64,000 bases of DNA from Heterotrichella gracilis (Eukaryota; Sar; Xanthophyceae; Tribonematales; Xanthonemataceae). The notes beneath the pieces were generated by a model. It saw only the letters and a program-made list of their open reading frames with translations, was not told the origin of the DNA and made no database searches. The position numbers and the translations under genes were made by a program. How positions within the stretch are numbered: position 1 is the stretch's first letter; each line of letters starts with the position of its first letter. Below are positions 2,736 to 61,100 of this stretch, one piece after another. The stretch lies in the NCBI GenBank assembly GCA_032358255.1, contig JAULBX010008551.1, forward strand, positions 1 to 64,000. The letters are read 5' to 3'.

Positions 2736-5700
2736 ACCACTTATTTTGTGGACAGTGATACCCCCACACTATGCCACAAGAGCTTGCGTACTCTATCCCA
2801 ACAATGTTCACACCGATATTCCATCTGACGCAGTACATTGCTGCGATGCAGGGTCCAAATTCTACATAGAACCAATCATTCCTTGAGGCGATCATGGCAT
2901 TAATGCTCGGGGCCACGCAGGGCAAAGCCAATCCCGGATTTCTCAGGCTGCAGCTCAAGAGCAAAGTGGCAGTGCTGGTGAACGTGGCTGCATGTGGCAG
3001 CGATGCTGACAAGGCAAGGGCTGCACTACTGAGACCCGGCGTGGTAGGGCAGCTTGTGAAGTCTACTAATACTTCCACCTTAGCAAGCGCAAGTGTGCAC
3101 CAGCAGACCATGCAGCGGCGCTTGGGATACCTCGTGATGGTATATGGCTGGGGTGTGATTGCAGCAGATATGGAGAAAGCTTTGAAGGCATTGGACACAG
3201 GTGTCTCTGCTTTGAAGTGGCTTGAGGCACTGCTAGCCCCTGGGACCAGCTTGGTTGCAGACCTTGGTGAGTTAGTTTCCCCCCTTGCAGGAATTTGGCT
3301 TTGACCACATCCGCTGTGGTTAGTTTTAGTATGTTGACATGCGCTTGACTGGCTGGCTGCTGACTCGGGTATTGGTGAAGCATGAGAGCCTGTCAGTATC
3401 CTTTGCCCTGTTGCAAGCAAATATATGGCCATTTACATGCATTCCGGCGCATTGATATTGTGATTCCGTGGCATGGTCTGTATTCTTACAGCGCTGATGC
3501 ATCTGGGTACAGGCACAACTGCCGATGCCCTTACCAAGGTAGCACTGGCTGTGGTTCCACACACCATCGAGGGCGCATTTGGCAGTGAGATCTCAAGGGC
3601 ACGGTGGGCTCACCTCATGGAGGCAACACACCGGAGAGCGAAGATGCTCCTTTTGCTGGAGGCTTTGCTACCAGCCGAGCAGCAGAGTGAGTACAATAAA
3701 CGAAAAACAATTGCCATTTACAATTACAATTACAAAAATGAGTACCATTACGATTACAATCACAATCATGATACAATTATATAAAAGGCTTTGCTACAAG
3801 CCGAGCAGCAGTGTGAGTGATTTGATCAAAGGGGGTTCTTATCATATAGAATGGGTGTTTTGGGCCGGGCATGGAATCATATTTTGTCACCTACCGTATG
3901 TTGCATGTATGGCTTATTATCCTCACAAGGGAGGGACAAAGTGCTATATGCCAATAGCACTGACGGCCTGAACTCCCACCCTCCTATTATCCTCAGTGCT
4001 ATTGGTACAAGTGGTCAGCTGACTACGAGTGTTATTACCTTCGGAAGTTTTACAGTCAATTGGTTCCCAGGCAGTCCATATGCACCAACAAGCTAGGTTT
4101 CTTGTGCAAAAAGGACACTCCAAGATCTTTTTTGCTGGCACAGCTTCATCTTGATGCAAGGAAAGCTGAAAGCGCGTTGCTCGTCTACCACAGGTGGATT
4201 TGGCAATCGCCAATCAAGATAAAGATAATCATGATCATTTTCATAACCCTCAATACATAATTAATCATGATAACAAATGTTCCCACAGGTGCCTTGCCTG
4301 GTGCCATGGAAGCCATGGTTGACCGGATGGTGGCTGCGGAGGGTCTTGTGGGCATTGTGGGGGTGGTCAGCTCAGTGCACCAAGGGCTGGAGCAAGAGAG
4401 AGCAGGGTTTGCTGCAGGTGCGGCAATGCAGGGGCTTTTGCACATCTGTAAAGCGTATGGCGTGTGTTTGCATGTGTTGTTTCGTTGGCATGTGCATGCA
4501 CTGCATCTGTTTGTATGCCAGTGGGTAAATTGGACACTTCAAGAAGACGGGGAAATGCAAAATGTACCTGCATTTCAATGCTGATTGTAACTGCCATCGT
4601 GATATTTGTAGTATTTGCCCAATCACAACTGGGATTGTTGCTGCATTGCCGCAGGTAACCGGTACTTCAAGAGGATGTGCCTCAAGGCCACCGAGAGGCT
4701 GCAGCCGCTACCTCCACTGCCTGCCGCATCTGCTGACTGGGCAGTGCAGCTGTCACCTGATGCGTGCACATGCCCAGTGTGCCGTCCAGTGCTCTCTTTC
4801 CTCCAGGACCCCGCCCGCAAGGCGATGGTGCTTACTGTGAAGACTATGAAGGACCAGCAGCACATCAAGAGGTGGGGCATGCAGGGTGGTGCTTGTTCTT
4901 TACTCCTTGCCCCTGCGTCTGCTTGCCCCTGATCTACTGTTCCACTAATTTGCCAGATCCTGATATTTATCCACTAATTTGCCAGCTCCTGACATTGTTC
5001 TCACCATCTTGCCTTGCCTGCAACCAAATGGAACGGGCCGCATCTGGCAAGCCAGCTCAAGAGAGTTATAATCCGAGGTGTTACAATTCCAGCAACAGCA
5101 CGGTAAGGACGCCAATCGTATTTAATCACATAAGAGTATTCAATCGCTTGGCTTTGCCATGGTTGCGAGGTGTAACCATCTCCGGCATTATATGCTGCAT
5201 TGCAATTTAGCACCGCCTCTTGTGCTGTAGTTTCAATCAGATGCTCTGGCATAGGACCGCACAGGGTATGGAGAAACTCATGAATAGCATGCGACAGCGT
5301 GCGCGCAATGATGACTTGGCTATGATGACCAGCAGCCTTGCAACCCTAGAAGCATGATTGCATGCACACGCATAACAAAAGCAAATTAAGGTTGATCTTT
5401 TATAAAGCTAAAATAGCTACTTTTATTAAGTTCACATTATACTTTAAAACCGGTCCCCAAGACCCCCAACCAGTCGCCGGGGGTTCGCCACTGTCGCCAG
5501 GGTCTCGCCAGGGGTCGCCAGGGATTGCCCGGAGCCCATTGTCATAGTGTTTTCTTCTGTTAATGTAAAAGCACTGATACTGCATTGCAAGTTTCCAACT
5601 TTCCCACCCCGGAAATCCGCCGCAGTGCCCCACCGCAGACATTACCTGCACCACACGCACGCACACTCCACCGCCATGCAGGCACGTCCTGACCAAACTG

Positions 5701-7842: not shown

Positions 7843-10800
7843 ATGCCTCCTGAGAAGCACAAAATGGAAGACCAGTTCCGGCCAGCTAGTGCCATGGACG
7901 CACATGGGCTCAACACTCACAATAAAGCCCACCCAGGCCCCACCCCTGGCGTCTTTGGAACCGTGGAGCCCTCAGCATCCGTTGGATCAAACCAGACTCC
8001 TTTCCTCCTGCCTACCGGTGCCCCAACCACAATATCCTTGGCGCCATCCCTGTCAGCTGAACTAGAAGACAACATCGACCACCTGGTGAATGGGTCCCCC
8101 TTTCTGGACTTCACCAGCCCTATGACAGCCTACGAGTACATCAAAACGGTTCTGCTGCTGCCCTTTTTGCTGGTGAAGCTGGTGCTGCTGGCCATAGGTG
8201 TGCTGCGCTGTATTGCACTGTACATAGCTGCACTGCACAGCGTGCTGGTTAGCAATTCAATAGGTGTTGGCATTCAAATGACAAAAACAGGAAGGAGGGC
8301 CAAGTGGGTTGTCACCAGCGTCACCTTTGCTGCTGGTGAAGTTGGTGCTGCTGGCCATAAGTGGGTTGCAGTGGAACACTTGTTAGCAACCCAACAGGTG
8401 TTGGACACATCCCGCAGTGCCTAGGGTCAAGTTGCAAACGCAGCAGTACAGATGAGTACTTGCACTAGCAGCGCTAAGCAGTTTATGTGTCCTAGCATTG
8501 TTTACACCCATTCCCCTTACTTGTGCAGGCCTGCCCATCGCCTACCTGTGCGCAGTCCTCCCATGTGTGGGTTTGGCGCTGCACGAGCCTGTGCCACGCT
8601 GGCGATCGGACTTCATGCGGGCGGCGGTGCAGCTGTGGGCGGGATTATTGCTCAAGTGAGTTGGCGTGCACCACCCTACTTCATGGAGCCTGGATGGCAA
8701 TGCTCCACTTTAGGGTTTAGGGTTCATGCTGTGTGCATCTGCGCACACCAGGGTGGGCTGCCAATATTACAGTGAAGGGAAGAGAAGCAGTACTGGCCAA
8801 CATGTGCCGACTACAAGCCTGGCGCGCCATCATTGTGCACAACCACGTTTTGTATGGAACCGATGGCAATTGTCCACCTTAGGGTAAAGGGTTTGGGGTG
8901 TAGAGTTTCAGGTTCATGCACCCACATATACATGTCCTCGTGTGCACCAGGGTGGGCTGCCAGTACTACTGGATCAAAGTCACGGGGAAGGAGCACTACC
9001 GAGCGGCCCAGGCCTGCCGGGCCATTATCGTGCACAACCACGTGTCCTACGTGGACCCGCTGGCCATGGTCTACCTATTCGCCCCCTGCGGGGTGGCCAA
9101 GGCGGGGGTGGCCAAGATCCCCCTCATTGGGGGAATCGCGCGGGCTCTGCAATGGGTGTTTGTGCAGCGGAAGGGCACGCAGGTAAGCCGTCCAACCTAA
9201 AGCTAAACCCGAAGCTTAGGGTCACATGTGCCGACCTGACCCTGCATGCAGCTGCAGGACTCAGATCCAGCACGATGAACGCATGGTGTAAGCAGTGGTG
9301 GCGCCACATGAGCAAAACTCAAATGCAGCCCAATACTGCAGTGCTGGAATGCATTTAACGAAGTGATTGAAATTGAGTATAGAAATCGAATAATGAAACC
9401 AAAAAGTGCAACTGAGTAATGAGGCGTATGCAGGATGAGGTTGGGAGCGGGTCGCGGCAGACCAGCACCACCACGCAGACCATTGCAGAGCGGGCGGCGG
9501 ATCCCAGGTGAGAGTTGGGCAAGGGATCAAATAGGACGTGTGGTTTCCGCACGCATGTTCGAGGGTGCGGATGATGACCCCGGCGCGCTGATCCCATCCA
9601 CGCATCCACCCCACATAGTGCACACACCGCCCACCCCGGCACCCACCGCTCGACCTTCTTCCCCACCCCTGGCCCCCCAACCCCCTGCTGTCATTTCGCC
9701 TGAGGGCACCATCAAGAACATGAACATGAGCAATACTATCTTGCGATTTTAATGAGTGAGGGAAATTACATTCTTAAAATGGTCCGATTTCCCGCCATCA
9801 GGTACCCCCTGCTGTCTGTGGCTCCCGAGGGCACCACTAAGAACGCAAACTGCCTGCTGCGGTTCTCCACCGGCGCCTTTGTGAGCGGCCAGCCGGTGGT
9901 GCCCATCCTGTTCCGGTACCAGCACCGCCACTTTGACGTGGGGTGGGGGAGGGTGTATCTGGGGCTGCACATGATGCGACTGGGCTGCCAGTTTGTCAAC
10001 CACCTGGAGGTACATAATTCCTTTTGGGTCTAGGGTTCCAGTTTAGGGTAAATGATTTCCTGGAGTGGCACATGATGCACCTGGCCTGCCAACTTGTCAA
10101 CCACCTGGAGGTACGTGGTTTGTTCAGGGTTTAGGGTTCAGCTTGGGGTTAAGGGTTACCTAGGGCGCACATGCTGCACCTGGACTGCCAGTTTGTCAAC
10201 CACGTGGAGGTATGCGATTTGTCTAGGGTTTAGGGTTCATCTTAGTTGAGGTACAACTGGGGCTGCACATGCTGCACCTGAGCTACCATTTTATCAATAA
10301 CATGGAGGCACATTGGCTGTAGTTATAGATTTCACCCTACCCTGTTAACGGATTGAACTCGGTGCTCATGCTTGGGCCCTGTACCCTAGCCTGTATGGGG
10401 TCTGGGTTTGGATGTAGGGAATCCTGCTACTCTAGCAAGGAGTAAGAAGCAGACCCCAGGATTCCCACTGCCGCTACCTAAACTGTTTGCTACCCTTGCG
10501 CAAGGTCTCGTCGTCTCATGGCCCTGCAGGTGACGGTGCTTGGGCCCTAGTACCCTAACGACGAGGAGAAGGCAGACCTTGAGTGTCACCCAGGCACTGC
10601 CTACACCGGTTTCTGACCTTACGCAATGGGCCCATTCCCCCGCAGGTGACGGTGCTGGAGCCCTACCACCCTAGCGACGAGGAGAAGGCAGACCCTAGGC
10701 TGTACGCTGAGAACGTGCGCAGCCTGATGGCTCGGGAGCTGGGGGCAGAGCTGGTTGACCAGGGTGTGGCTGAGAACCAGCTGTTGCAGCGGGCAGGGGT

Positions 10801-19100: not shown

Positions 19101-22100
19101 CCCTACCCCAGGAGGGCGGCGTGGTTCCAGATCCCGCCGATGGAGACCCTGCACCCCAAAACCCTACACTCCCGCAGCCTGCAGAGGGCGAGGGGGCTGC
19201 AGCCGCTGCCGAGGACCCGGCGGTCAGTTTCAGCAAGACCGACCCTTCCATGGTGGCGCGCGAAAACGCCACCACCGAAGACCCTGCGAAGGGTTTGCAG
19301 CCCGAGGCGGGGGAGGGGATGGCCGAGGCCGCCGGCGCCAAGGTGGATGATCAGGGCAATATCGTGGAGGAGGGGAGGTCGCAGCTTGAGCTGGGGGTAT
19401 CTGTAGCCAGCAGCGATGCGGTCAACGGCAGCAGCGTGGCGGGTGGCGGGGATCCCCAGGCGGATGCGTTCCCATCTGTGGATGCGGTGATGGCTGATGT
19501 GGTGCCGGTGAAGCGGCCGGAGGGGCTGGTGCAGAGAGGTAGGGCGGGGGTGAGGGGTGGCAGTGGGTGGTGGGTGGGTGGAGAGGGGGGGGGTAGTGGT
19601 AGTGCTAGGAAGAAGGGGCGGCGATGGGCGTTGCACGCCCCGCACGGGTCGATGCAGGCCGTTTTTGAGTCGTTTGTTACATCAACAGCAAGCAGGGAGC
19701 AGCTCAGCTTCCACCCACATGGATCTATTCACATTGTCTGGGCCCACGCTGCGCCCTTCTCTCGAAGAAATAGGAAACTAGGAGACTAATACCATGATAT
19801 TTGCTTTATTGAATCTATGTCCCACTTGACACGCTGTGCACATGTCCTCCTTGCAGAGGAGGAGCATGCCACTAGGTGTAGGGTTTGGTTAAAGGGTTTA
19901 GGGTTACCCACCCTTTGACACACTATGTACCCTCCCTTGCAGAAGAAGAGGAGGAGCCTGAGGAGCCTGAGGAGGTTCATGCAGCAGGGGAGGACCCCAG
20001 CAAGCGCCTGTCATTCCCCTTCCAGGACCAGGACAACGCCACAGCAGGCAAGGCCATAAACCCTAAATCATGAACCCTAAAACCTAGGCAATCATCTCCC
20101 TTCCTGGACGAAGGCAACGCCACAGGCAGGCAAGGGCATGTAAACCCTACGTCGTGAATCCCAAACCCTGGATTCACCACCTGGAGAGAGGTCCTGCAAC
20201 AGAAGAGAGGTCCTGCTTGTTTCTCCTGACTGCTCATTTGTGGACCAGTCACATGCGTACAGTCCATGCACCCGCCATGTACCATGCCCCACTGTTAGTC
20301 ATCTACATGCATAGCAAGTCAGGGAATTAATCGTAATTTTCCTGCCTCAGGTTTTGCTCAACTTCAAATCCCCGCCAAGCACTGGCCCAAGGTGATCAGC
20401 AGGGACCAGGGCAGCCTCCCGGGGACTGCCTCGCGCGCAGGTCAGTCTTGTCTTTTCTGTCGTGAGCTGCATATGCACAATATATATATATTGTATATGA
20501 TACAATCAGATGTGATGCAGTTGTATAGGATACAATCCTGCCAAGCAGCAAAAGTAGCAGTCAGCGCTGTACACACATCAAATCATGAAAAACCAAAATC
20601 ACTCCATGCAGACCTGCTCTCAACTGCTTATATCAATCTCTCGAGTCCCTTGCATGTTTGGTTCGCAGTAACTGAGGCCACGGATGACGGCTGGCAATGC
20701 CTTTCTGTCTTTGTTTGTTTGTAACTAGGCCGCATTGCGTGCAGGGGCAGCGGCGAAGTCCACCTCCCGCCTGAAGCGCCGCCGTAAGGTGGTCCCCGTC
20801 AGCTCAGCAGTGCAGCGGGTGGCCCCCGCCACGCTGGGCACAGATGGTGGGGTTGCAGTTGATCCCCGGGGTGATACAGTGCCGAGGGTGAACCTCGCAG
20901 CATTGGACGCAGAGGGTGGGGAGCCAGTCAACCCCGGGGATGATGCAGTGCCAAGGGTAAACCCAGCATCGTTGGACGCAGAGGGTGGGGAGCCAGTTGA
21001 TCCCCTGGCGGAGCCAGTCAAATCCGGGGATGATGCAGTGCCAAGGGTAAACCCCGCATCTTTGGATGCAGAGGGTGGAGAGCCAGTCAATCCCCGGGAT
21101 GACCCAGTGCCTAGGGTGAACCCAGCAGCAATAGACGCAGAGGGTGGGGAGCCAAATGATCAGGGGGCAGATACAGTGCCGAGGGTGAATCCAGCAGCAT
21201 TGGATGCGGAGGGTGGGGAGCCGGTCGATCCCCGGGGGGAGGCAGTTATTTCCGCAGATGATACAGTGCCAAGGGTAAACCCAGCATCGCTGGATGCAGA
21301 GGGTGGGGAGCCAGTCAATCCTGGGGCCGATGCAGTGCCAACGGTGAACCCAGCAGCATTAGATGCAGAGGGTGGGGAAACGGTCAATCCCGGGGCTGAT
21401 GCTGTGCCAATGGTAAAACCAGCAGCAGTGGATGCAGAGGGTGAGGAACCCACCGATGGCGAGGCAGATACAGTACCGATTGTGGACCCTGCGTCGCTGG
21501 GCGGGGAGGGTGGGGAGCCAAGTGAGACCGGGGATCTCCCATTCAAGTGCGTGGGCCCCACACCCTAAACCCTAAACCTTACACCTTGAACCCTAAATTG
21601 AGCTCGGGGATTGCCCATTTAAGCGCAGGGGCCCCACACCCTAGGCCTGGATCTTTAAACCCTGCATGCTTCCTGCCCGGGCACTTCGCATTGTGACAGT
21701 GGACCTCACATCCTACATTTTAAACACCCTGCGTTTTAAACGTAACTCTACATGCTTCCTTCCAGGAGAGTGGACCATGCCTCACCGTTCAACTTGTCAA
21801 ATCATAAACCCTGAACCCTGAACGCTGAATCCTACATGCTTTCCTGGCCAAGATTCCTGGCACGAGAGTGAACTTGACCTCGCCACTTAATCCTTCAAAC
21901 CCTGAATTTGCGAACTCCAAACCCTAAGCCCTACATGCTTCCTGTCCAGGGTTCCTGGCGAGAGAGTGAACCCTGCCTCCATTGAGGCAGAGGGTGGGGA
22001 GCCCAAGGATTTCGGCGCCAACATCTACGAGGGTGCCAATCCGCCGCGGCGCAGGGCCAAGCGCAAAACCCTCCGCAAGGGTTCCAGGAGGAGGGTGGAG

Positions 22101-27778: not shown

Positions 27779-27828
27779 CGCGGGGCGGGGCTAGAGTTTT
27801 TATGTAGGGTTTTGGGAGGGTTTTGGGT

Positions 27829-28070
27829 GGAGGACCTGGTGTGCGACCACAGCGTGGTGCTGCACCCCACGCCCTGCAGGGAGGCGTGCGGGGGGTGCTC
27901 GGTGACCAAGGAGTCGTTCGGGCCCACCTTCACGTGCGTGCGCCAGGCGCACCAGCAGGTTGCCAGCTAACGCGCAGCGGGGTTTTTTTAGGGTTTTGTT
28001 TGGGTCTTGGGAGGGTTTTGGGTGGGTTACCTGGTGCGCAACCACAGCTAACGCGCAGGCTCGGGTTTTG
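27829..28070 (+). repeat. Copies of the terminal exon beyond the stop codon
   Basis: About 150 bp of the last glycosyltransferase exon, including the TAA, are repeated at 27829-27985 (CACAGCGTGGTGCTGCACCC, CACCTTCACGTGCGTGCGCC). A short remnant (GCGCAACCACAGCTAACGCG) lies at 28036-28056. They fall in the 3' untranslated or flanking region. Confidence 0.85.
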
Positions 28071-36500: not shown

Positions 36501-36829
36501 CCAAATCAGCATCCATCCATCCCGCTTTGTATCCACATCTCCCAAGCTGAGAAGATGGGCGGCATCAAGCCTCCGATCCAGACGAATTGCGGGAAAATAT
36601 ATTTGCCATTGCACAGAAATTGACCCCATCCACCTCTTCCCCGACCTACGCCCATCTTTGCTAAGGCTTGTATTCTTTCCCCCCCCAGGCTGAGAAGATG
36701 GGCGGCATCAAGCCCCCCAAGCAGAAGACCTGGGACGAGGAGCACACCTACATCCAGCGCCCAGTGGGGGAGCAGTTCAAGCCACCGCCACACGTGGTGC
36801 CAAAGGGGAAGGGGCCGCCCAGGCAATAG
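33542..36829 (+). CDS. DNAJC8-like J-domain protein
   Basis: Seven exons, 33542-33715, 34042-34182, 34787-34999, 35393-35515, 35857-35964, 36214-36261 and 36689-36829, all in phase 0, give 315 residues. After an acidic N-terminus comes EFFSEVREVDRDNEVNRILG and LNPFEQLGVHFDAGPDDIKR, then YRKVSLLVHPDKC with the HPD triad that stimulates Hsp70, split by intron 2. The J domain continues AADAFRILGLAHKELLDD. Charged helices (WRKRKLTKR, KEINKRLRDHSKKWEETREN) and VGTWRNFVTKKSSGKK near the C-terminus match human DNAJC8, a nuclear protein found with the spliceosome. Family membership is clear; the splicing role is inferred from the human member. Confidence 0.93.
34310..34380 (+). repeat. Copy of DNAJC8-like exon 2 end
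   Basis: GCTGGGGGTGCACTTTGATG and AATGCCAATACAGACAG repeat the last about 60 bp of exon 2 (34128-34185) some 190 bp downstream. Confidence 0.8.
34605..34665 (+). repeat. Copy of DNAJC8-like exon 3 start
   Basis: AAGGTGTCCCTCCATGTCCA and CCCCGACATGTGCCACCACC repeat the exon 3 start (34787 onward), including the HPD codons, in intron 2. Confidence 0.8.
35085..35185 (+). repeat. Copy of DNAJC8-like exon 3 end
   Basis: GCAAGGAGCGGGGCAAGCGT and GCTGGCGGGCGTGCTGCACG repeat about 95 bp of the exon 3 end (34905-35005), followed by a GTGAGG donor-like site. Confidence 0.85.
36530..36605 (+). repeat. Copy of DNAJC8-like exon 7 start
   Basis: GCTGAGAAGATGGGCGGCAT and CAAGCCTCCGATCCAGA repeat the exon 7 start (36689 onward) about 145 bp upstream. 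Confidence 0.85.
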
Positions 36830-37694: not shown

Positions 37695-41032
<3,338 letters not shown>

Positions 41033-41575: not shown

Positions 41576-44500
41576 ATGGACCCCACAGCGAGCACCAGCT
41601 GCCAGCAGTTGCAATTGCAGCGGCCTGTCAAGGCAACGCGGTTTGGCATTCCCTCACGAGCTGTCGCGCAACGATGCCACAGGCGGTTCAGCAGGACCCA
41701 CACCACCTGCGCCGCGTCAGACAGCTTTCAAACGCGTGCCTCGGCCCTGAGCGTAGACCTTTCTACCTACCGGTCGCTGTTGGAGCCAGCAACGCCACCA
41801 GTCAATGCCCTCCCCTCTCTTGACGGCGGGAGGACAGCAGGGAGGTCGGACGTGGGCGATGTGGGCCAGCTCAAACCGCGGCTCAGAGTGGCAGTAGACG
41901 TCGACGAAGGTGTGTTGCACGACTTGCATATGCTGGATCGCCCGTCCAGTTCCCGGGTGAATAGTGAATGCATACACATCTTGTCATGTGGGGCAGTTCC
42001 TGGGCTGCGTGGGCAATGACAGCTGTACCGCTTTGGGTGGGCTGCTTGACAGCGCACAGCGTCGCTGTTAGTTGCGTTACGACTAGTGCTGGTGCGGTGT
42101 GCTGCAAGGATTGAGCTGGCGGGTGTGCACATGTAGGGGAGCCTGGTGTAGTAGTGCCTGCATGTCCACCACAAAGTTGCACAAGTCGGTTTTGGGTGGT
42201 AGTTCACAAGCTGTGCAGCTGCAAGCACAGGGGGTGTTCAGGATAAAGAAACAGCTGGTTTTGCTTTTTCATTGCTCGGGCGCATTGCATTGTCTGGCTG
42301 GGGTGTTATTTTCCATGTGTCCCTGAGCATGTGCGTGTGAGCTTGCGCCATATAAAAAGCCCAAAATACAACTTGCATATGGATAACAAAAGTGTATCCA
42401 AACCATTCTCAATTCAATAACTGGGCTGGCGGACCGGTGGTGGCCCACCGTTGCCATCCCTTGGCGATGTGTTAACACCCCACCCCACCCCGCCACCACC
42501 ACCACCACCACCCACCTTCACCCCTTGTGCGCACCAGCATCAGCACCAACATCAGCTGCCATCCATCTGCACAGTACCCCACACCTAACCCCGTTGCTGC
42601 CCTTGGCACAGCCTACCACGCCAACTCCCGCCACCGCCCCTTAACCTACCTACCTGAGGCCCCACACTGACCAGCCCCGCAGAAAACCCTAAACCCATAA
42701 CCCCAAATTCTGTATTTCACCATACCCAGGGACTGCCCCAGCCACCCCTGACGTTTGTGTTGCCCTCCTCCCCTGCAGTGTTGGGTCGCTTCCTCCACAG
42801 CTTGAACCAGTTCTGTGCGGAGAACTACGGGTTTGAGTATGATGTGGGCGACTACTTCATGTATGACTTTGCAAAGGTGCGGTGCGGGCAAAACCCTAGG
42901 CTAGGGTGCAAGATGGGACGGGCCGCCGTGGACGGCTGCAGACGTTTCGCGATTATAGGTGGCGGTGGTGGTGGTTTGTGACAAAGCAGAATCCTGGTGG
43001 GAGGTTGGTGGGTTTGTAGCTTGAACTACTGCTGCGCGGAGAGTGTATGGTCTAGGGATTGGATTTTGAGTATGACGTGGGCACCAGCTTGAGAATGACT
43101 TTGCAAAGGTGGGCTGTGTGCTGCGGGCAAAACCCTAGGGCTTTTGGCTTTTGCCTCGCCTGACATATGCCATTGCTGGTCTGTTTCCCCCCCGTCCACA
43201 ACCTCCACCCCCCTTCCCCGCACCTACCCCCCACTGCCAACCCACCCCAATCCCCCCTGCCTTCCACCCCCAAGACCCACCACTCACCCGCCCACCCCTC
43301 CCCTCCCCCAGGTTTGGCAGTGTTCCCAGGACGAGTCCAACCACATTGTGCACAACTTCTTCCAGTCGCGGCATTTCTCACACGGAATCCTGCCAATACC
43401 AGGTACCAGCCCTGCGCACCAACCCTTCTACCCCAAACCCTATATGGCGCCAATTTCCGCACGGCAAAATGCCCATTCTGGAGTAAGCTCGCGCCACTTG
43501 CCGTTTGCAGATGCGCACTCTCAGCCATGTGCAGCTGTGGGTGACCTCCAGCCGTGTGTGTACCATGTGTGTCCTCGGCGCTACAGAGTGTTGTCATGCA
43601 CACTAAAACCCTATGTGCATGGACACCAAACCCTATACATGCGCCACAAACCCTTTGAATCAAATCCTATGTGCATGGCCACTAGAACCCTACGGCATGC
43701 CCACCATACCCTGTGCATGCGCTCATCACCCTGCGCACGGTACCCTGCATCCAGCCCCCACATCCCACCACCCTGATCCCCCTCGCTCATTTTACCCCCT
43801 CCCTACCTTCCCCAAGAGCCCTGTCCAGCCTGCAGGGCCTGTCCCCGCACTGGGACCCTACATCCTAAACCACAAATCCTAAATCGTAGTCACCCCGTGC
43901 ACCATCCCAAACTCCATGCATGTGGCATCACATTCCATCGTTTTGAGCACCCCACTCCCCCCACCACGTTCCACCACCCAAATCCCCTTCCCTCAAACAG
44001 CCCCCCTCCCCTCCCCAGGTGCCCTGTCCAGCCTGCTGCGCCTGTCCCCGCACTGCGACCTGGCCATAGTCACCCCTTGCATTCCGAACTCCATGCATGT
44101 GGCATCACATCCCCTGCCCTGATACAGCCCCCCCTACCCTCCCCAGGTGCCCTGTCCAGCCTGCAGCGCCTGTCCCTGCACTGCGACCTGGTCATCGTGA
44201 CCTCCCGCCAGCACATCATCCGCCAGCCCACCCTGGACTGGGTGGACACGCACTTCCCCGCCATCTTCTCGGAGGTGCACTTTGGCAACCACTTTGCGCT
44301 GGAGGGCACGCCCAAGAAGAAGAGCGAGATGTGCACGTGAGTGGGGGTGTGGGGTGTAGGTTTAGGGCTGGGTAAGGTATGCTCGCGAGGTGGAAGTAGG
44401 GCCCATAAAATTGGCACGGCAGTGACCATTCTACAGAATAAATGATTTTTTTCAATATGCGATGCAATCAATTTGGGCTGGAGGGCACGCCCAAGAAGAA

Positions 44501-45621
44501 GAGCGAGATGTGCACGTGAGTGGGGTGTGGGGTTGGGGTTTCAGGACGGGGTGGTGGGTTGTTGGCCCAGGGCTGGTTGGCAGCCATAGGCGGTGGTTCA
44601 GCTGACATGGCAATGATGGTGGGAGCCCGTGGTGGTGTGGTGATGATGTGCTGGCCAGTGGTGGGTGCATCCCAGTGCATTCACAGCACGAATGCAGCCG
44701 TAATCGCCACACCCACCACCCCCACCACGCCATTGGCAGGGAGCTGGGCGGCCAGGTGCTGATTGACGACTACCCTAGATCATAAACCCTGAACTCTAAA
44801 CCCTAAACCACTCGCAAGAAGCTGGGCGCCCAGGTGCTGATTGACGACAACCCCAAAACCCTAATCCCTAAACCCTACTTCACCGGCAGGGAGCTGGGCG
44901 CCCAGGCGCTGATTGGCAACAAACCCAAACCCTAATCCCTGAACCCTAAACCCTAAACCACTCGCAAGAAGCTGGGCGCCCAGGTGCTGATGGACGACAA
45001 CCCCAAAACCCTAATCCCTGAACCCTATACCCTAAATCACCTGCAGGGAGCTGGGCGCTCAGGTGCTGATTGACGACAACCCGCGCTACGCTGTTGAGTG
45101 CGCTGAGGCCGGCATCCATGTGCTGCTGTACGACTGGCAGCATGCATACCCCTGGAGCAAGACGGAGGACGGGTGAGTGGGGATGATAGAGGGGGAGGGG
45201 TGGGGGCTGCTGTGTTTGTTTTGGGTGGGGAGGTGGGGTGGGATGACCATGTTGCACAAGACCAGCAAATGACGGAAACATCGCCAGGGTAGGTTTGGAT
45301 GACCTTAGTACCCGTATAGGTCAGGTGCCATGCAAATGGTTCCAAGTTAGTTCAAAAGGTGCTCTTTTCTAGTATGCTAATTCGATGTCGAAAAGGTCAT
45401 GAATCCTGAAGTGGCAGTAATGATAACTGAGTCATCTCTACTCTGCCTGATCGTCCCCCCTCTTCCTCCCACCCCTGCCTAACCCCTTCCCCCCTTCCTG
45501 CCACCCCTCCCGCAGGCCCATCCACCCGCTGATAGAGCGCGTTGCTGACTGGGACCAGGTGGAGGCGGCGCTGGCAAAGCTGGCGCACACAGGGGGGTGG
45601 GCGGTGCATGCGGGGCAATGA
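41576..45621 (+). CDS. HAD-fold NT5C-like phosphatase with probable organelle leader
   Basis: Six exons, 41576-41909, 42779-42876, 43312-43402, 44147-44336, 45047-45172 and 45516-45621, join in phase to 314 residues. HAD motifs: VAVDVDEVLGRFLHS (motif I, DxD near residue 108), VTSRQH (motif II), the Lys-rich TPKKKSEMC (motif III region) and LIDDNPRYA (motif IV). This set resembles the 5'(3')-deoxyribonucleotidase NT5C type and a plant HAD family annotated that way; the true substrate is not fixed. The first about 60 residues are Ser/Thr/Arg-rich with few acids (TSCQQLQLQRPVKATRFG), fitting a plastid or mitochondrial transit peptide. The start CCGCCATGG has a good context. Confidence 0.85.
43055..43140 (+). 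repeat. Copy of HAD exon 2 end
   Basis: TTTTGAGTATGACGTGGGCA and GACTTTGCAAAGGTGGG plus GCGGGCAAAACCCTAGG repeat the exon 2 end and intron start (42831-42902). Confidence 0.85.
43812..44112 (+). repeat. Two copies of HAD exon 4 start
   Basis: CCCTGTCCAGCCTGCAGGGC at 43820 and CCCTGTCCAGCCTGCTGCGC at 44022 repeat the exon 4 start (44150). Both copies share an extra tail, AACTCCATGCATGTGGCATC, which marks one duplication after the other. C-rich tracts and an AG precede the 44016 copy as at a real acceptor. Confidence 0.85.
44465..44530 (+). repeat. Near-exact copy of HAD exon 4 end
   Basis: GCTGGAGGGCACGCCCAAGA and AGAAGAGCGAGATGTGCACG followed by GTGAGTGGGG reproduce the exon 4 end and donor (44298-44346) with almost no change, about 180 bp downstream. 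Confidence 0.9.
44735..45005 (+). repeat. Ladder of four copies of HAD exon 5 start
   Basis: GAGCTGGGCG(C/G)CCAGGTGCTGAT or a close form occurs at about 44741, 44818, 44889 and 44967 before the real exon 5 start at 45047. Units are about 71-80 bp and each ends in CCCTAAACC-type words. The second and fourth copies share AAGAAGCTGG and CAACCCCAAAACCCTAATCC. Confidence 0.92.
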
Positions 45622-49149: not shown

Positions 49150-50045
49150 AAGGCCATGGTTGGTGGGTAGTGGTGTTGCTGCTGGTCATCTAGGTCTATA
49201 GGTTGGCAACCACCAGTACCCACCATAAGTTCAGTTCACAGCATCTGCACAGCAAGGCAAGCGGGTCATTTGAGCGAGGCACTAGGATATTGAGGCGAGC
49301 ATGGACAGTAAGACGCTGAGCTGAGCTGGTGTGGTGGTTGAAGCGAAATTGATGGTAGCTCAAGTGAGATTTGTGTGGTGATGGCACACGGGTAACTAGT
49401 GACATTGTTACACTAGTATGATACAGCGGAATACAACATTATGCAGCATACTCCTGCTCAGCAAGGTGCGTCCAACCAACCCTTGGGCTACTCCCCGGGC
49501 TGAAACTCCACCTTGCGCTGGAGCAATATGCGCAGAGGGCCCTCGCAATGAGATGGTGGCACAGGAACTGCCAGCTGCCGAGTGGTGTGCACGCAGTGCA
49601 TGCACACTACTGATAGCCTTCTACACCGCCAATAGCCTTCTCATGCCGTGAGCTGTGCTGCACGTGCCCACACAATGACTAGATCATCCAGTTATTACCA
49701 CAGTGTAGGTTGTTTCTGTCAGAGTGTAGGTGTAACCCTAGCTTAGGTTCTACAAGAGGAAATGTAGAAGAGGAGATCTCGGCAGGTTTTAGGAACAGTG
49801 GCAATTCTGTTACAAATAGTCTATCTCTACCCAAGTAAGAGAAACTGTGGCAGTGCCTTTTAGAAGCTCAACAGCTTGTTGCATTAAAGGGTGTAAAAGC
49901 TAAAGTGAAATGACAAAAACGACAAATCAAAATGGGAAAGCAGCAATCCCGCACTCAAAGATCAAGCTTTGGAATTAGTACCGAAATGCAGTGCACTTGT
50001 CAACAGATACAACCTTGTGGGTATTGGTGACTACATAGCAGGTAC
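49150..50045. repeat. Dispersed repeat, copy B
   Basis: Similar to 46441-47125 over most of its length, in the same orientation. It is longer by about 190 bp (roughly 49690-49880), which looks like an insertion in B or a loss in A. Shared words include AACTAG(C/T)GACATTGTTAC and GTGCGTCCAACCAACCCTTG. Confidence 0.7.
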
Positions 50046-51812: not shown

Positions 51813-54800
51813 ATGGCAAGGGGAGCGACACGCAATCAGTCCCAGCAGGGGGGGCGCAAGCGCAAGGCTAGCAAGGGGGATGACCCTGATCTCCATGGGG
51901 GAGTTGCAAAGAAGCAGGAGGCAGCAGGGGAGGAAACCGCACCTGGTAGGTACTGACTCAATCAATTACAAGGATTATTTGACTGATCAGATTGGGCCGG
52001 TGGTGAGAAATCATCATCCACCGAATCTGATTACTCACAAAGACCCTTGTACATGGCTCAGTGATGAGTGATGACAGGTCATGAGTGATGAGTGGAGTGA
52101 TCACTGCCGTGCTAATCAGCTGTTTGACCTCTGCATAAGTAATTATGAGTCAATGTGGCTGTGTGACCGCCCCTGCAAATAAGTATTAGACGGATGTGGC
52201 TGTTTGACCTCCCCTGCAAGTAATAAATCATTAATCTGGCTACTTGATCTCCCCTGCTCTCCTGCTCCAGCTGCAGGCGACTCCCCCCCACCCCAGCATG
52301 GCACTGACCCAGCCGAAGCACAGCCAGGGGAGCAACCCAAAGGGGGTGTTCAAGGGGAGGAAGCTCCCGCCAACACAGTGCAGCAGCCAGTGGGCACCGA
52401 GGGGGAAATGCCTGACAGCGTGATTGAGGAGGGGAGGTTGCTTTTCTTCTACCGCGCGCGGGTGGGGGTGGAGGAGGCGCACTCGCTGGACCAGGTGCAG
52501 CGCTCATACATGGTGAGAGGGGAGGGAAAAGGATGGGATTGAAAGGGGAGGAAAGGGGAGGGAAGGGACGGGTGCCCAGTGGGAGATCCACCTGATTGCC
52601 ATCTGTAAGAAGCACCTGGTTGCAATCCCCGATAATCTGCATCCCAGACAAGTGCTTCGCCTGGAATCTACTGCAATCTGCTGCTGCAAATTTCACCAGC
52701 ATTCTGTGTCATGTAATGTATCCCCACCGCAGGTGCTGGCCCCCACCTCCCGCCCCACCGGCCCCCTGCGCCTGATCGCCATCCCCAAGAAGCGCCTGCC
52801 CAGCACCCGCCGCAAGGAGCGCGTGTTTGCTTTCGTGGACAAGGTGCAGCGCGACATGGAGGCAATCACGGGGGACCTGGGCGAGAAAACGTGGGTAGGC
52901 TGCCAGGACTTGGGGATGGGTTGTGGGGATTGCATTATGGATGGAATCATTGGGGACCTGGGCGAGAAAACGTGGGTAGCTGTCAGGGCTTTGGGGATTG
53001 TTGTGGGGATTATTTTAGCAGACCTCAGTCTGGAATTGCATCTGTAAAACAGGATGTCGTTTGTGTTTTGTTTCCATGTTGTAATAAGAATTCTAAAATT
53101 ACATGCATTGCGTTCCCTTTTGTGTAATTTTTTGCATGTACAAGACCACGCATGCTTGCACGCGGCAACAATAAATTTAAGAAATGTAAGAAACATTTCA
53201 TACTTATATGAATATGACTGTCAAATATTTTTTGTGAAATCTTGTATATGCATAATTTGCCTATTTCTTCCACAGGTACGAGACCAAGACCCGTGGCACC
53301 CGCACGCTTGCCCCCGCACGCGTGGCAGCAGAGGGGGTGTATACCCTGGTGGGGCGCAAGGGGAGTGCGCAGCTGGGGTATGTGATGAGTGTGCCTGAGC
53401 AGGCGGGGCCTGTGCAGAAGGCGCTGGGGCTGGAGGGGCAGGGCAGCTTTGTGCTGCAGGTCAAGGTAGGGTGTCGGATTTAGGGTCCAGGACTTGGGGT
53501 TGGTGTTGGTGCGGAAGAGGCAGGGCAGCTTTGTGCTACAGGCCAAGGTAGGGTCTAGGGTTTCCTGTATGGGTTTTGGGACGTGCGTTCTAGGTTGGAG
53601 GGGGAGGGCGGTGGTGTGATACTGACGCTTACACCTTGCTTGCGCGCAATACTAATCTGGCTGTATTGCTAAATGAAATGTAACTAATAAATTAGCTAAT
53701 TAAGTAAGTAACGTTTGGGTTGGCGTTGGTGCTGGATGGGCATTGCACGTCCTGGGCGGCAGGTAGGGGTCACTAACAGGAAGTGGGGTAAGCTTTAGAG
53801 TACATGTCTGCACTAAGGGATTCTGCACTGCACCACAGTCTAGGCAATCACCTCCATGCAATCACCATCCCAATACCCTACAAGGAATGCTCAGGCACCA
53901 ATCCCAGATCTGCAGAACCTACGCCCCCAATTCGAAGCCCTAAATTCCCGTAGAACCCCCGAGCGTTTCAAACCCTAACCCTGAACCCTGACCCCCGCAG
54001 AACTCCGAGTGCCCCAGCCCCCTCAACGCCGGCCTGGATACCAAGGCTGACTACATCCTAATCCCTAAACCCCAAACCCTAAACTCCGCAGAACCCCGAG
54101 CGCCCCAACCCCCCCAACGCGGGCCTGGACAACAAGGCCGACTACACCCCTGGTCAGAAGGAGGAGTTCCAGGGATATGCGTGGATCCCCGCCACTGACC
54201 CCACCCTCTTGGATCAGGAGCGCTGCGAGCTGCTGCTGGTGGGGGCGCATGAGGAGGCAACAGGTTGGACATTTTGCCAAAACAGAGCCATTTGCACCCA
54301 AGACATTCCATTCTACGCACATATGGAATTCCGTGGTAGCTAATTAGGGATAGAAAATACGTGATGCGTAATACGTAATACGTGGTATTATGTATTTTTT
54401 TATTTGCATGGAAATAATACATTGAACATGCGTTATCTAATAGCAGTGAAGTGACCATGTTTGTGACGCCATTTCACGTCGAGAACTCCATTTACCGGCA
54501 TGAACAATGTCTCACAAGGTCACATGCAACCCTCAGCTACCAACTAGGACTCAACATAGCACACTTTTACTGTCTGAGGGCCAATACCTGCCTAAAATAG
54601 AAAATGCGATGGAAATTGACATATATTTCACAATTAATATGCGGTCACTGACAATTATTTTGCAAGCAAAAATGGTTGCATGAAGTCTTGTAAGCCCGGC
54701 ATGTATCAATATTGTGACTCCTGTGCTAAAATATGCACTTGGAAATTTATCTGTGACTTGAATGCATTTAATTTATTATTTCACGTATTTTTAAACGTAT

Positions 54801-55729
54801 TTTTCACGTATTATCGGAATTTAATGAAAATACGTGGTATTACGTATTATTTCTCGGCAATTCGTGGTACCGTATTTTGAATCCCTATAGCTAATTGTGC
54901 GTGGGTCCCTGGCTCGAACGCAATCCTCGTGGATCAGGGGTGCAAGCTGCTGCTGGTGGGGGAGCAGGAGGCGGCGGCAGGTGGGGGGAGTGGGGGGGCG
55001 CATGGTGTGGGTGTGGGTGGAAGCGAAATCGCACGGCATTTTGCCCGCTGTGATGCACCATGGCAAAGGATTCTGCAAGGCGTCAGGGTGATAAAGATTG
55101 CAAGGTGAGTGGGACGGCAGTCTTAAACCCTAGCCTAGACAGTGTCTACACCCTGAGGGATATGATAGCTGCAGATGCACCTGGTGAGGTAGGCGAGCAC
55201 ACTACTCACATGGCACGCCAGAACCAGAGGCCTTTAATTGGGAACCCTGAACCCTTGAAAACCTTCTAGCTGGGTCCCTGAACTCTAAACCCTGCTGGCT
55301 GCAGGTGAGCTAGGCGAGGCAGGCCAGCACATGGCCCACATGCCACACCTCAACCAGGATCCTTTCATCACCTGAACCCTAAACCCTGTACCGGTGACCC
55401 TCTTCTATGGTCTCTGAAACCAAACCCTGCTGTGTGCAGGTGAGCTAGGCGAGGCAGGGGAGCACATGGCACACATGGCACACTTGAACCAGGGGGGCAG
55501 CAGTGGGGAAAGCGAGCATGGGGGCTACAGCAGCAGCGACATGGATGAGGAGGGGAGTGCGGAGGAGTCCCCCCCTGATGGGGAGGAAAGGGAGGATGGG
55601 GAGGAAAAGGAGGAGGGGGAGGGAGGAGGGGGTGGCACCAGCGCCAGCCTGGTTCAGAAGCTGGAAGCTGAGCTGGAGGGCGGTGGAGATGTGGTGACTG
55701 GGCCTGCAGCCACGGGGCAGTGGGAGTGA
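51813..55729 (+). CDS. Conserved protein of unknown function
   Basis: Six exons, 51813-51945, 52271-52512, 52733-52890, 53276-53465, 54092-54263 and 55440-55729, join in phase to 394 residues. The N-terminus is basic (GGRKRKASKG, nuclear-signal-like), then acidic and flexible. A folded core follows: GRLLFFYRARVGVEEAHSLD, VQRSYMVLAPTS, RLIAIPKKRLP, RVFAFVDKVQ, YETKTRGTRTLAPARVAAEG, YVMSVPEQAGPVQKALGL, SFVLQVKNPE, and YAWIPATDPTLLDQERCELL. I recall similar FYR...EAH...LDxVQR proteins from bacteria and fungi without an assigned role, but cannot confirm by search. The C-terminus is a Glu/Gly-rich tail. The start GCAGCATGG is good. The last intron carries a hAT-type insertion. Confidence 0.8.
52945..53012 (+). 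repeat. Copy of exon 3 end, unknown-function gene
   Basis: TGGGGACCTGGGCGAGAAAA followed by CGTGGGTAG repeats the exon 3 end and intron start (52871-52900), about 80 bp downstream and nearly exact; the repeat continues into intron sequence (TTTGGGGATTG). Confidence 0.85.
53515..53562 (+). repeat. Copy of exon 4 end, unknown-function gene
   Basis: CAGGGCAGCTTTGTGCTACA and GGCCAAGGTAGGGT repeat the exon 4 end and donor (53439-53472). Confidence 0.85.
53993..54060 (+). repeat. Copy of exon 5 start, unknown-function gene
   Basis: CCGCAGAACTCCGAGTGCCC and CAAGGCTGACTACATCC repeat the acceptor and first 55 bp of exon 5 (54087-54148), about 94 bp upstream. Confidence 0.85.
54345..54887. mobile_element. 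Non-autonomous hAT-type DNA transposon (MITE-like), 543 bp
   Basis: The element begins TAGGGATAGAAAATACG and ends CGTATTTTGAATCCCTA, imperfect terminal inverted repeats of 17 bp with two mismatches. It is flanked by an exact 8-bp target-site duplication, TAGCTAAT, at 54337-54344 and 54888-54895. An 8-bp duplication and TAGGG-type ends fit the hAT superfamily. The interior is AT-rich, has subterminal ACGTATTA/AATACGT words at both ends and no transposase frame. It sits in the last intron of the unknown-function gene and was presumably moved by a hAT transposase elsewhere in the genome. Confidence 0.85.
54896..54990 (+). repeat. Copy of exon 5 end, unknown-function gene
   Basis: TGGATCAGGGGTGCAAGCTG and CTGCTGGTGGGGGAGCAGGA repeat the exon 5 end (54210-54266). 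The hAT element lies between the exon and this copy. Confidence 0.8.
55165..55352 (+). repeat. Two copies of exon 6 start, unknown-function gene
   Basis: GCAGGTGAGCTAGGCGAGGC at 55303 is near-identical to the exon 6 start (55437). A more decayed copy (TGGTGAGGTAGGCGAGCACA) lies at 55182. Both continue through the ACATGGC(A/C)CACATG region. Confidence 0.85.
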
Positions 55730-57539: not shown

Positions 57540-58140
57540 TAATATACAAGCTCAATGATTGGAAGCCAGACTGCTCGCCCAGTCCTTGCCATTGAATGGC
57601 GCATGGCATGTGGCTGGCTGCTGCACTGCATGTAGGTGAAGTGTTGGATACCGCGGCAACTGCACCCCCAGAGATATTATCAGGCTCCAGACCCCACAGC
57701 GTGACCCCATGTACCCAGCTGGCTAAGCATCCAAACCCACGGCGTGATCGCATGTAACCAGACTCTGATGAGCTGCTGGCCCAGTCCTCGCCTCTTGGCG
57801 CGTGGCATGTGGGGCTGACTGCTGATGTGGCTTGTTGCTGGACCGCATGTAGGCGAAGTGGGTGGTAACGGCAACCATTGCATCCTCCCGGGCAGTTCTC
57901 TCCCCAGGCTCCAAACCCACGGCGTGATCGCATGTGACCAGCTGGCTAGTCATCCAAGCCAGATTCCGATGAGCTGCTCGCCTCTTGGTGCATGGCATGT
58001 GAGGTTGACTGCTGAGTTGGCTGGCTGCTGGACAACATGTTGGTGGAGTGGGTGGGTACCACGGACGGTGCACCCTCCCGGGTATTTCTCTCCCCAGGCT
58101 CCAAACCCACGGCGTGACGTGATCGCATGCAACCAGCTGG
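57540..58140 (-). repeat. Tandem repeat downstream of the F-box gene with copies of its terminal exon
   Basis: About three units of 185-215 bp follow the F-box stop codon (on its strand). Each contains the plus-strand words GGCTCCA(A/G)ACCC(A/C)ACGGCGTGA or similar, GCGCATGGCATGTG-type words, and a remnant of the exon 3' end (CATCCAAGCCAGATTCCGAT at 57953 against CGTCCAAGCCAGATTCCGAC at 58147). The unit nearest the gene is least decayed. Confidence 0.8.
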
Positions 58141-61100
58141 CTAATCGTCCAAGCCAGATTCCGACGAGCTGCTGGCCCAATCCTCAGCCCACCCCTCTTC
58201 CATGAACAAATCCTCGGATTGGTCGCTCCATGACACCCCGTCAGGGAACTCCTCCTCCCCGTCCTCCCCGTCATCCTCGCCCCCCTCCCCCTCCGCGTCC
58301 CCCTTGCTGTGCCGCCCCCCCTCCGACACCATCTCCAGCCCCCCCGCCTCCACCAGGGGGTCGGGGTGGATGTAGGTGTAGTGGGGGTGGGGGGAGGTGG
58401 CGGCGGTGAAGCCAGTGAGGGGGGCGCCAACCACCTTCACATAGCTCAGGCATGCTGCACGAGGATAAACAGTAGAAAATAAAATAATAAATATAAACCG
58501 CATTTAATAATATGCCCAAAATATGTATCAACATTCATTTTATGGAGCATCATATGCTTGCCTACGTGGCCCTGTCCTGAACGAGAGTGACCATGCATGC
58601 GTGGCGCCTACCATAGGATATGCGTGGCTATGCATATGCACATGCTTGCCAGCATGGCCACATGATGTACACCAGAGTTTACCTCTTTCCGGCGCCTGGG
58701 CACCTACTGTAGAACAGGCCGTCCACCGCCTGGCGCTATGCATATGGGTGGGATTGCCAGGCTGGGCACACAACACATAATTTAATACGATACATGATGC
58801 ACGCCATATCAAATTATATGACTATGCCCAATCTGTACTCATGCACCTACCGTAGAACAGGCCGTCCACCGCCTGGCGCTGCACCGTCCCCACCAGCTCG
58901 ATCTGCACCATCCCGCCCCCGCACACCACCCCCGGCACCGCAAACCGCTGCAGCGTGTCAGCGGGCGCCACCGGCATCAGCTCGGAGCTCCACTGCCATC
59001 TGACGGTGCCGCACAGTGCTGACCTGGAAGAGAGAAGGAGGATATGTATTACAAAGCACTGCTGAAGTTGTCACCAGTCTAAAGACTGAAGTTGACAGGG
59101 AAGGACAGCCTCGGAAGCCTCTCCTTCCCTCACATATTATTATTTAGGAGGGGGGGAGTGCAGGGGTGGCAACGCCGAGGGGACAACGAGATAACAACAA
59201 GCCCTGACATCCCCGCGGCAACAGCGGGCTTTTCATCATTATTTCTAAAATTGTACCAGGACACCTAATTATCAAAGACACCACAGGCCCAGCAAACCAT
59301 GCTCAAAAATCTGAGGATATGGCGCTTGCTTAAAACTTAAACCACTTTCTATTTATCTTCCTATATAATTTGAATGTCAATATGTAATCCGTACCTGGCC
59401 TCCCAGGTGAGTGGCTGACCCTCTGGGGTGAAGCAGTCTGCGCCGCCCAGCTTGATGCGCAGGGAGTGGGGCGCGTACACAGGGGACCCCTGCTGGAAGT
59501 AGGCCGCAAAGGGGCGCAGCTGGACCTCACGCACCACGCACATGGGGTGCGCCAGGCAGAAGGTGATGGTGTCGATGTGGCCCTCGTCCTGCGGGTGGGG
59601 TGGGATGAGTGAGGAGAGGATAGGCAACGGAAGGGAGGGATGGGTTTGCCTGCAGGGTTGATGGTGAGAGGGGGGGTTGGGGTGGGTACAACAGGGCGCA
59701 GCAGGATTCGCGCACCACACATATGGGGTGCGCTAGGCAGAAGGGGATGGTGTCAACTTGGTATCGATTCTCAACCCTACCGGGGCCCGCTAAAACCCTA
59801 AACCACAAAATCTGCTGGACCAGTAGTTCAGCCGCCTGCTCCTAAACCCTAAATTCTGTACCCTAAAACCCTAAAACCCTACCGGGGAGCCTCTGCTTGA
59901 CCAATAGCACAGCCGCCTGCCCCGATTAACCACATCGGGGTTTAGCACATTCTCCAGGCGCTCGTTGGTGTGGTCAGTGGAGGAAGCCAGCAGGGCCTCA
60001 GCTATGAGGGAGTGGGTGGCGTTGGTGGTGCCCAGCTGCCAGCACAGGCGCTTGAAGAGCTGGGAGAAGGCCACTGTGGCTGGGGAGAGATCCCACAGGG
60101 CGGTGGTTGGGGGTGGGTGGTGGCTGGACGTGGAGGTGGAGGCGCCGTGGGGGGGTGCGGTGGGGGGGCTGGCGTCAAGGGGGGGCAGGGGGGTGTCCTG
60201 GTAGGGGAGGTCGGCTTCTGGTACCTGGAGGGTTTTGGGCGCGTGGGTGAGCCCTTTGGTGGCGGATCTCTCGCTGGCAATGGGACTGGCAAGCCCGATT
60301 GCCCAATACAATGGAAGCTCTGGATCTTGACTGTGATAATAACCAAGACCCGTTTCGCCAAGGGTTGCCACTTTGGGGTACTTCACAGCGCTTCAGCGAC
60401 AGGTGGGGGAGCATGGCACTGTGCAGCGTTCACAGCACGCAGCATGGCTTGTGCCACAAACACTGTGCCATGTGTGCCAAGGAAATCCATGCCACCACCC
60501 GTTAGTCATGGTGTCGTACCCCAAATGGGGCGCATAGCATGAGCCTGTATTCCTGGGGTGTTGCTGCAGGGGAGGCGCCTATGCAGGTACTGTCCTTGTT
60601 ATTTACCTGTAGGCATATGGCGGGCGTGTAGTCACTCAGGTTGGGGCAACCCCTCAGGCACAGGCGGCGCCACAGCTGGTGCTCAACCACTGCACAGACA
60701 ACAACATAATACAAACAACTCAGCGCGAAACCTTCAGACAGGATGGCAATTGAACCAGCAGGTGCTGAATAATCAAGGCAGTGCTGACTATTCAAGGCAA
60801 CAAAAGAATAAGCACAACTCAGCGGGAAACCTTCAAGCAGGCTGGCAGCCAACGGCAGTTGCACCAGCAGTGCTGACTATTTGAGGCGGTGTTTTCCGAG
60901 TTTTGCAGGCCGCTGGCATAGTGCTGTTGCAGTGCGGACGTAGCAGTGGGGTGGGTAGGGTAAGTGCCATCCAGTGCGGCCCTCCCAGCTGCTCTCACCT
61001 ATGGTGCGAAACCTCCTGCACACCAGCTCGGTCCAGTGGAGGTGCGCTGGTGAGAGGAAGCTGAGAGCTTTTGACAGCACGTCATCCTGTGAGGGGGACA

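Follow-up and report, generated by a model that had tools for sequence, protein, structure and literature searches.

Exon edges and their copies

The stretch of DNA analysed here is a 64-kb window from the xanthophycean alga Heterotrichella gracilis (assembly GCA_032358255.1, contig JAULBX010008551.1, positions 1 to 64,000, forward strand). It is eukaryotic nuclear DNA with a G+C content of 50–61% in 2-kb windows, and it carries intron-rich genes on both strands. Within the introns of these genes lie direct repeats of the ends of neighboring exons, most of them including the splice site. These exon-edge copies, and the telomere-like sequence found at many of their joints, are the subject of this report.

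All counts refer to this one window, and copies inside arrays are not independent of one another. The counting set comprises 12 predicted gene models with 67 introns and 134 splice junctions. The models are predictions from a small self-trained gene finder, partly curated by hand, which was rerun after suspected copies had been masked. Six of the ten proteins scanned have a Pfam family (acyltransferase, ankyrin, eS6, DnaJ, TPI and NT5C-like phosphatase), and the TPI model is also backed by a match in PDB. The labels GT29-like, F-box, NDUFA5-like and 2OG-like are presumptive and come from reading the translations. In the TPI gene the PDB match supports 37698–37910 as the real exon, and its copy at 38025–38152 is frameshifted, with 8 bp missing. 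In the acyltransferase gene a longer exon, 9802–10009, was preferred to the gene finder's call from reading the protein, and the later copies at 10060–10313 form an array.

A first self-comparison of the window gave 66 direct and 9 inverted pairs of repeats, and 56 of the direct pairs lie within 500 bp of each other. At a score of at least 30 bits and an offset of at most 600 bp, there are 82 direct pairs compared to 9 inverted ones, while ten shuffles yielded 0.2 direct pairs on average. With a threshold of 33 bits the number is 78 pairs, 35 of which join a copy that spans a splice junction to one that spans none. The rest are exon–exon (15), intron–intron (13), intergenic (9) and other (6) pairs, with none in the junction–junction class. 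Reduced to 47 non-redundant local families, the repeats fall into 33 with one exonic copy, 4 with both copies exonic, 8 confined to introns and 2 intergenic, where random placement expects 13.9 (sd 3.0), 8.4, 12.0 and 12.7, respectively. None of 2000 random placements reached 33. The preliminary description of this DNA had named this comparison beforehand as its own refutation test, and junction-spanning repeats are indeed commoner than chance allows. Its central observation, that an exon end and its splice site are repeated directly in the neighboring intron, is thus confirmed. It had estimated about fifty copies in at least nine of thirteen genes, at donors and acceptors and on both strands; the 45 separate copies scored by script comprise 25 of donor type and 20 of acceptor type, on both strands of 9 of the 12 models. 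A copied edge is present at 31 of the 134 junctions (tolerance 16 bp). When exon–exon families are excluded, the offset between copies is 68–233 bp in 40 of 43 families and 408, 413 and 452 bp in the other three.

The copied edge had been described as a splice site, and this holds for 30 of the 33 families with one exonic copy, in which a splice junction lies inside the exonic copy. Two others copy the coding end and 3′ flank of predicted models (27628–27853 with 27826–28048, and 57608–57982 with 57825–58177), and a third (59512–59573 with 59694–59754) begins 15 bp inside the exon. As two families copy coding ends in the predicted models, the process is not aimed at splicing as such.

The copies have decayed as free sequence would. 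Across 32 non-redundant pairs, the exon-homologous columns (1561) contain 1329 matches, 197 mismatches and 35 gaps, and the intron-homologous columns (648) contain 499 matches, 106 mismatches and 43 gaps. Small indels are rare, with 13 gap events against 197 substitutions. Mismatches at codon positions 1, 2 and 3 number 45 of 508, 56 of 508 and 96 of 510 (8.9, 11.0 and 18.8%), a distribution accounted for by neutral decay of the copy at about 0.10 per site together with synonymous change in the true exon. The splice dinucleotide (GT, GC or AG) is kept in 25 of 30 copies (17 of 18 donors and 8 of 12 acceptors), close to the retention of about 81% predicted by the same rate. Since 25 of 30 keep the dinucleotide, selection to inactivate copied splice sites is unsupported. 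By eye, copied donors show changes at the last base of the exon. The statement that most copies are no longer open in frame did not hold, because 24 of 32 aligned segments, with reading frames assigned exon by exon, contain neither an in-frame stop nor a frameshifting gap.

The position of the copies relative to the edge follows from what a gene can tolerate. A tandem duplication within an exon breaks the gene, so any survivor that contains exon sequence must span the edge. If the upstream exon is to be kept whole, the spare copy lies downstream of the donor, and the mirror image applies at acceptors; the direction thus comes from selection for one intact exon. The pattern had been called local, directional and general, and had been taken as a likely property of the genome's replication or repair rather than of any gene. 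That it looks like a general mutational property is borne out by the 9 of 12 models affected and the neutral state of the copies, but a directional mechanism is unneeded.

Telomere-like tracts at the joints

Telomere-like DNA at the joint between copies is a point absent from the preliminary description. The window contains 80 tracts resembling CCCTAAA/TTTAGGG, located in introns (68), exons (2) and intergenic DNA (10); 20 shuffles gave 12.6 on average and 27 at most. Forty-two of the 68 intronic tracts lie within 30 bp of a copy, in a zone that holds 27% of intron bases, although this figure is partly circular in that tracts were duplicated along with arrays. Introns with a tract bear copies in 17 of 25 cases and introns without one in 7 of 42 (length-adjusted log odds 1.87, P = 0.004).

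The tracts are concentrated at one end of the copy. According to the script, a tract abuts the exonic breakpoint in 19 of 45 copies, compared to 8.1% of random intron positions; four further copies (44853, 44925, 45003 and 54058) plainly abut a tract in the sequence and were missed by the script, as their tracts had been merged across the copy. Counted by family, 16 of 33 have a tract at the exonic breakpoint, where 6.5 are expected and 2000 permutations, with positions shuffled inside the same intron, gave at most 14. At the intron-side end of the copy the count is 4 of 33. With respect to placement, the 33 families have tracts between the copies only (8), outside only (1), in both places (8) or in neither place (16), and the contrast of 8 to 1 has p = 0.039. 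A strong tract lies inside the span of 2 of the 8 intron-only families and of neither of the 2 intergenic ones. Bases common to exon and tract can be recognized by eye at several joints: ACAACCC at 44.8–45.0 kb, CATCC/CACCC at 54.06 kb, CCCATGGG at 39.68 kb, and AGGGT near 9.95–10.15 kb.

On the sense strand, the tract at the joint is of G type in 9 of 12 donor copies and of C type in 9 of 10 acceptor copies, with arrays counted copy by copy. When intron halves are compared, tracts close to copies show this orientation bias (p = 0.00095, n = 42) and more distant tracts do not (p = 0.70, n = 26). Sense-strand GC skew also flips within introns, from +0.160 in the first half to −0.125 in the second (65 introns), most strongly within 50 bp of the ends. 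With a G-rich first half and a C-rich second half in introns generally, composition may contribute to tract orientation.

Base pairing between intron ends was considered as a separate candidate and rejected. Its effect was weak (−55.8 vs −53.5 kcal/mol, p = 0.023–0.026, 51 of 67 introns); when the halves were shuffled, the values ranged from −52.9 to −55.3 kcal/mol.

Origin of the copies

Ordinary contiguous tandem duplication at random places, by replication slippage or unequal exchange, is one candidate source of such copies. It requires no special repair route and gives the tracts no role; edges would be seen because duplications inside exons are purged, and because a constrained partner keeps the pair recognizable for longer. 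This explains both the spanning of the edge and the direction of the copies, and several families are in fact contiguous (20011, 52856 and 53970, plus the arrays at donor exon 9802–10009 and acceptor exon 45047–45172). Furthermore, of 29 rows with a spacer of at least 15 bp, 10 have a spacer that can be aligned with the far flank at p < 0.05 (Fisher combined p = 1.6e-9); six of these ten are array-trimmed and trivial, and without them 4 of 23 rows remain, with a combined p of 0.0025. Uniform contiguous duplications with purging and neutral decay were simulated, with 700 events for each of four settings. The simulated shares are 42–44% with one exonic copy, 31–33% intronic and 24–26% intergenic, compared to 33, 8 and 2 of 43 observed. 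Whole-exon duplications make up 18–20% of the simulated edge class, while none of the 35 observed junction-spanning copies covers two junctions. The ratio of homology to offset has an observed median of 0.52, in contrast to about 0.99 when each pair is simulated at its own divergence (32 pairs, 60 runs each). At the base indel rate 27 of 32 rows fall below the 5% level for contiguous duplication, and 20 of 25 still do after the six array-trimmed rows and the 21520 row (coding repeats) are dropped. Plain tandem duplication with small-scale decay fits poorly, and the enrichment of telomere-like tracts at the joint also counts against it, making it an unlikely source for the pattern as a whole. 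Contiguous duplication accounts for a minority of families; many others resemble shorter patches of copied sequence, set apart from their source by a spacer without homology.

The remaining alternatives are far less probable. If the copies were maintained by selection, as alternative splice sites or as decoys that regulate splicing, the 25 of 30 dinucleotides and 24 of 32 open segments might be taken as its trace, but both figures are compatible with neutral decay at about 0.10 per site, mismatches at codon positions 1 and 2 are those expected of a free copy, and several copies of high identity lie at offsets that are not multiples of three (163, 116, 143, 179 and 182); we regard this explanation as very improbable. 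Intron gain, through duplication of an exonic AGGT or insertion of an introner, would make the repeats the two ends of a new intron, and an edge-crossing duplication is known to have produced one in potato (PMC4974935). Here, none of the 78 pairs has a real junction within both copies, and, apart from telomere-like tracts, stretches of low complexity and a single short dispersed repeat, the introns prove to have little in common on self-comparison. The earlier judgment that introners are unsuited as an explanation is thus supported, and intron gain in either form is slightly less credible still than selected decoys. Equally little weight attaches to an error of assembly, for instance haplotypes that failed to collapse and were joined in tandem. 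The assembly is a draft, as the run of 10 N indicates, but copy and exon have diverged by about 13%, with an excess at the third codon position, which is the mark of evolution and not of read error or allelic difference.

The reading that we favor, with a probability of roughly 0.68, is that repair-mediated local duplication left the copies as its scars, often with telomere-like sequence at the joint. From the copies, their excess, their neutral decay, the surplus of tracts and the misfit of contiguous duplication, we infer a break, the enzymes acting on it and an order of events. A break near an exon edge would be repaired in such a way that about 30–140 bp of flanking DNA is left twice, in direct orientation and mostly 70–230 bp apart. 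The telomere-like sequence at the joint may be filler added in repair or a pre-existing site of breakage. By one route, staggered ends would be filled in with telomeric filler: a staggered break might gain telomere repeats before fill-in and joining, leaving copy, telomere scar and copy. By another, slipped local copying would be primed at CCC/GGG microhomology. Selection would then retain arrangements with one whole exon, which would fix the direction and make exon-containing survivors span the edge, and the partner would become a neutral intronic decoy. Consistent with repair-mediated local duplication, the duplications are short and near their source, and a non-homologous spacer separates source and copy, a result that weakens at higher indel rates. 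The surplus of families with a telomere-type tract between the copies is as expected of telomeric insertion with duplication of the flanks.

Several observations weigh against this reading. Templated repair usually yields inverted copies too, and these are few here (9 compared to 82 direct). Something favors exon edges beyond what duplication, purging and decay produce in the simulation (33 of 43 vs 42–44%, p = 1.3e-5; with intergenic families left out, 33 of 41, p = 0.0009–0.003), and the reading accounts neither for this edge surplus nor for the 16 tract-free families. The joint lacks a tract in 17 of 33 families. The association of tracts with copies is partly circular, as tracts are duplicated within arrays and introns are tract-rich. 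Finally, the simulations presuppose uniform events and chosen indel rates, and with doubled, longer indels just 15 of 32 rows reject contiguous duplication.

Repair-mediated duplication can also be given a more specific and more doubtful form, which we consider possible but would not expect to hold. Breaks in the introns of this alga might routinely receive telomere repeats at their ends and then be filled in, each event leaving edge, telomere scar and edge in a row. Introns would then grow by scars, every exon edge would in the course of evolution gather spare splice sites, and the telomere-like tracts crowding the introns would be the record of that route.

Features of the window and known systems

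The copies are listed in Table 1. The short dispersed repeat listed last occurs in both orientations and is mostly intronic; 513–625 matches 8 other places at E ≤ 0.005, and it may be a small transposable element. In intergenic DNA, 46448–47124 and 49164–50037, some 2.7 kb from each other, have several direct blocks in common at 72–92% identity and represent an older, larger duplication. Palindromes (self-inverted matches) occur at 50929–50964, 18206–18249 and 51313–51407, two of them intergenic and one intronic. In the gene of a large acidic protein, a coding repeat of about 69 bp stays in frame and also shows higher-order periods (20807–21520). The assembly gap of 10 N, at 30595–30604, is within a long intron of the eS6 gene model. 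A Pfam scan of long read-through stretches found nothing in the two of six frames of the first 15 kb that were scanned, and no relative of eS6 was found in a scan of viral contigs.

Table 1. Positions of exon-edge copies and of the dispersed repeat in the window (gene models predicted)
Position	Strand	Copied feature	Source exon	Remarks
881..937	+	donor edge	408–495	weak: 74% identity, 36 bits, offset 408
3786..3818	+	donor edge	3513–3686	
8331..8369	+	donor edge	7834–8197 (acyltransferase)	
8746..8879	+	acceptor edge	8951–9182	telomere-like tract at exonic end
10060..10313	+	donor edge, three-copy array	9802–10009	telomere-like tracts between
10522..10578	+	acceptor edge	10646–10887	
20092..20169	+	donor edge	19943–20047	tract at joint
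21596..21643	+	donor edge	20745–21546	tract at joint
21813..21873	+	acceptor edge	21950–22182	
22254..22327	+	donor edge	21950–22182	tract at joint
25538..25861	+	donor edge, three copies	25207–25432	
26257..26332	+	donor edge	25996–26130	
26444..26736	+	acceptor edge, two copies	26837–27029	
27826..28048	+	coding end and 3′ flank	27516–27775	predicted model; tract at joint
30060..30118	-	donor edge	30164–30350 (eS6)	tract at joint
34314..34369	+	exon end	34042–34182	donor site lost; tract at joint
34606..34648	+	acceptor edge	34787–34999	
35074..35195	+	donor edge	34787–34999	
36541..36585	+	acceptor edge	36689–36826	
38025..38152	-	acceptor edge	37698–37910 (TPI)	8-bp deletion
39278..39306	-	acceptor edge	38935–39057 (TPI)	
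39592..39721	-	donor edge, two copies	39760–39844 (TPI)	telomere-like tracts between
43065..43139	+	donor edge	42801–42876	
43755..44074	+	acceptor edge, two copies	44147–44336	
44464..44552	+	donor edge	44147–44336	
44730..45036	+	acceptor edge, four-copy array	45047–45172	joined by telomere-like tracts
52937..53011	+	donor edge	52733–52890	contiguous, no tract
53507..53563	+	donor edge	53276–53465	tract at joint
53970..54058	+	acceptor edge	54092–54238	contiguous; telomere-like tracts at both joints
55168..55358	+	acceptor edge, two copies	55440–55726	tracts between
57608..58143	-	coding end and 3′ flank, tandem copies	gene ending at 58144	predicted model
58700..58737	-	donor edge	58851–59023	
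59694..59754	-	exon start minus first 15 bp	59395–59588	tract at joint
120–202, 513–625, 1531–1621, 2560–2604, 9336–9362, 17724–17765, 38647–38707, 53652–53702, 57815–57851		dispersed repeat		

The preliminary description knew of no named element that explains the pattern, yet named processes do leave such scars (PMC2671141, PMC2246262). Proximal local duplications in humans have a mean length of 162 bp and a median of 147 bp, with filler and microhomology at their joints; 824 duplications are reported in the human genome, 4 with donors that are partly exon and intron, and splice sites and exons are among the copied sequences (PMC2671141). The copies described here are likewise short, local and neutral, and they carry splice sites and exon sequence. 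Unlike the human cases, there are 33 edge families in one 64-kb window, direct copies alone stand out, and the joints are telomere-like. At double-strand breaks, mammalian genomes take up telomeric repeats, and the flanking sequence was duplicated at 6 of 130 loci in rodents and 4 of 25 in primates (Nergadze et al. 2007, PMC2246262). These loci share with the present ones telomere-type DNA at the joint and, in some, a duplicated flank. There, however, duplication is a minority outcome shown against empty sites in relatives, whereas the tracts here are degenerate and short, and most of them (68 of 80) lie in introns.

In mouse and human cells, staggered breaks acquire small tandem duplications through CST-guided Pol alpha-primase, which is the machinery of telomere fill-in (Schimmel et al. 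2021, PMC8355091). The products are direct duplications, as here, and arise there by fill-in of complementary 3′ overhangs. That work used induced breaks, with 43-bp overhangs in the assay, while many of the present copies have long spacers. In the potato RdRp gene (PMC4974935) a duplicated exon/intron boundary also provides spare splice signals, but no new intron is evident in our window, where the copies lie within existing introns. Direct repeats near splice sites have been reported by Rogers and Bendich (2025, PMC11782384) as well; theirs are 4–30 bp long and shared by the two borders of an intron, unlike the tens of base pairs of a single exon edge found here. Among the titles and abstract openings listed by the literature searches, none describes the pattern; most subscription papers lay outside their coverage.

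On the favored reading the process is a known one, repair-mediated local duplication, which here is dense and often joined through telomere-like DNA; dense is meant relative to the human figures of PMC2671141, which were obtained by a different and more restrictive method. The copies illustrate how introns may lengthen and acquire extra splice sites. For annotation, the copies are a warning, as the gene finder at first called several of them exons and masking was needed. If the density holds genome-wide, this lineage would be a test bed for the lengthening of introns and for the origin of alternative splice sites and new introns, and it would offer a test of telomere-type end processing in ordinary break repair.

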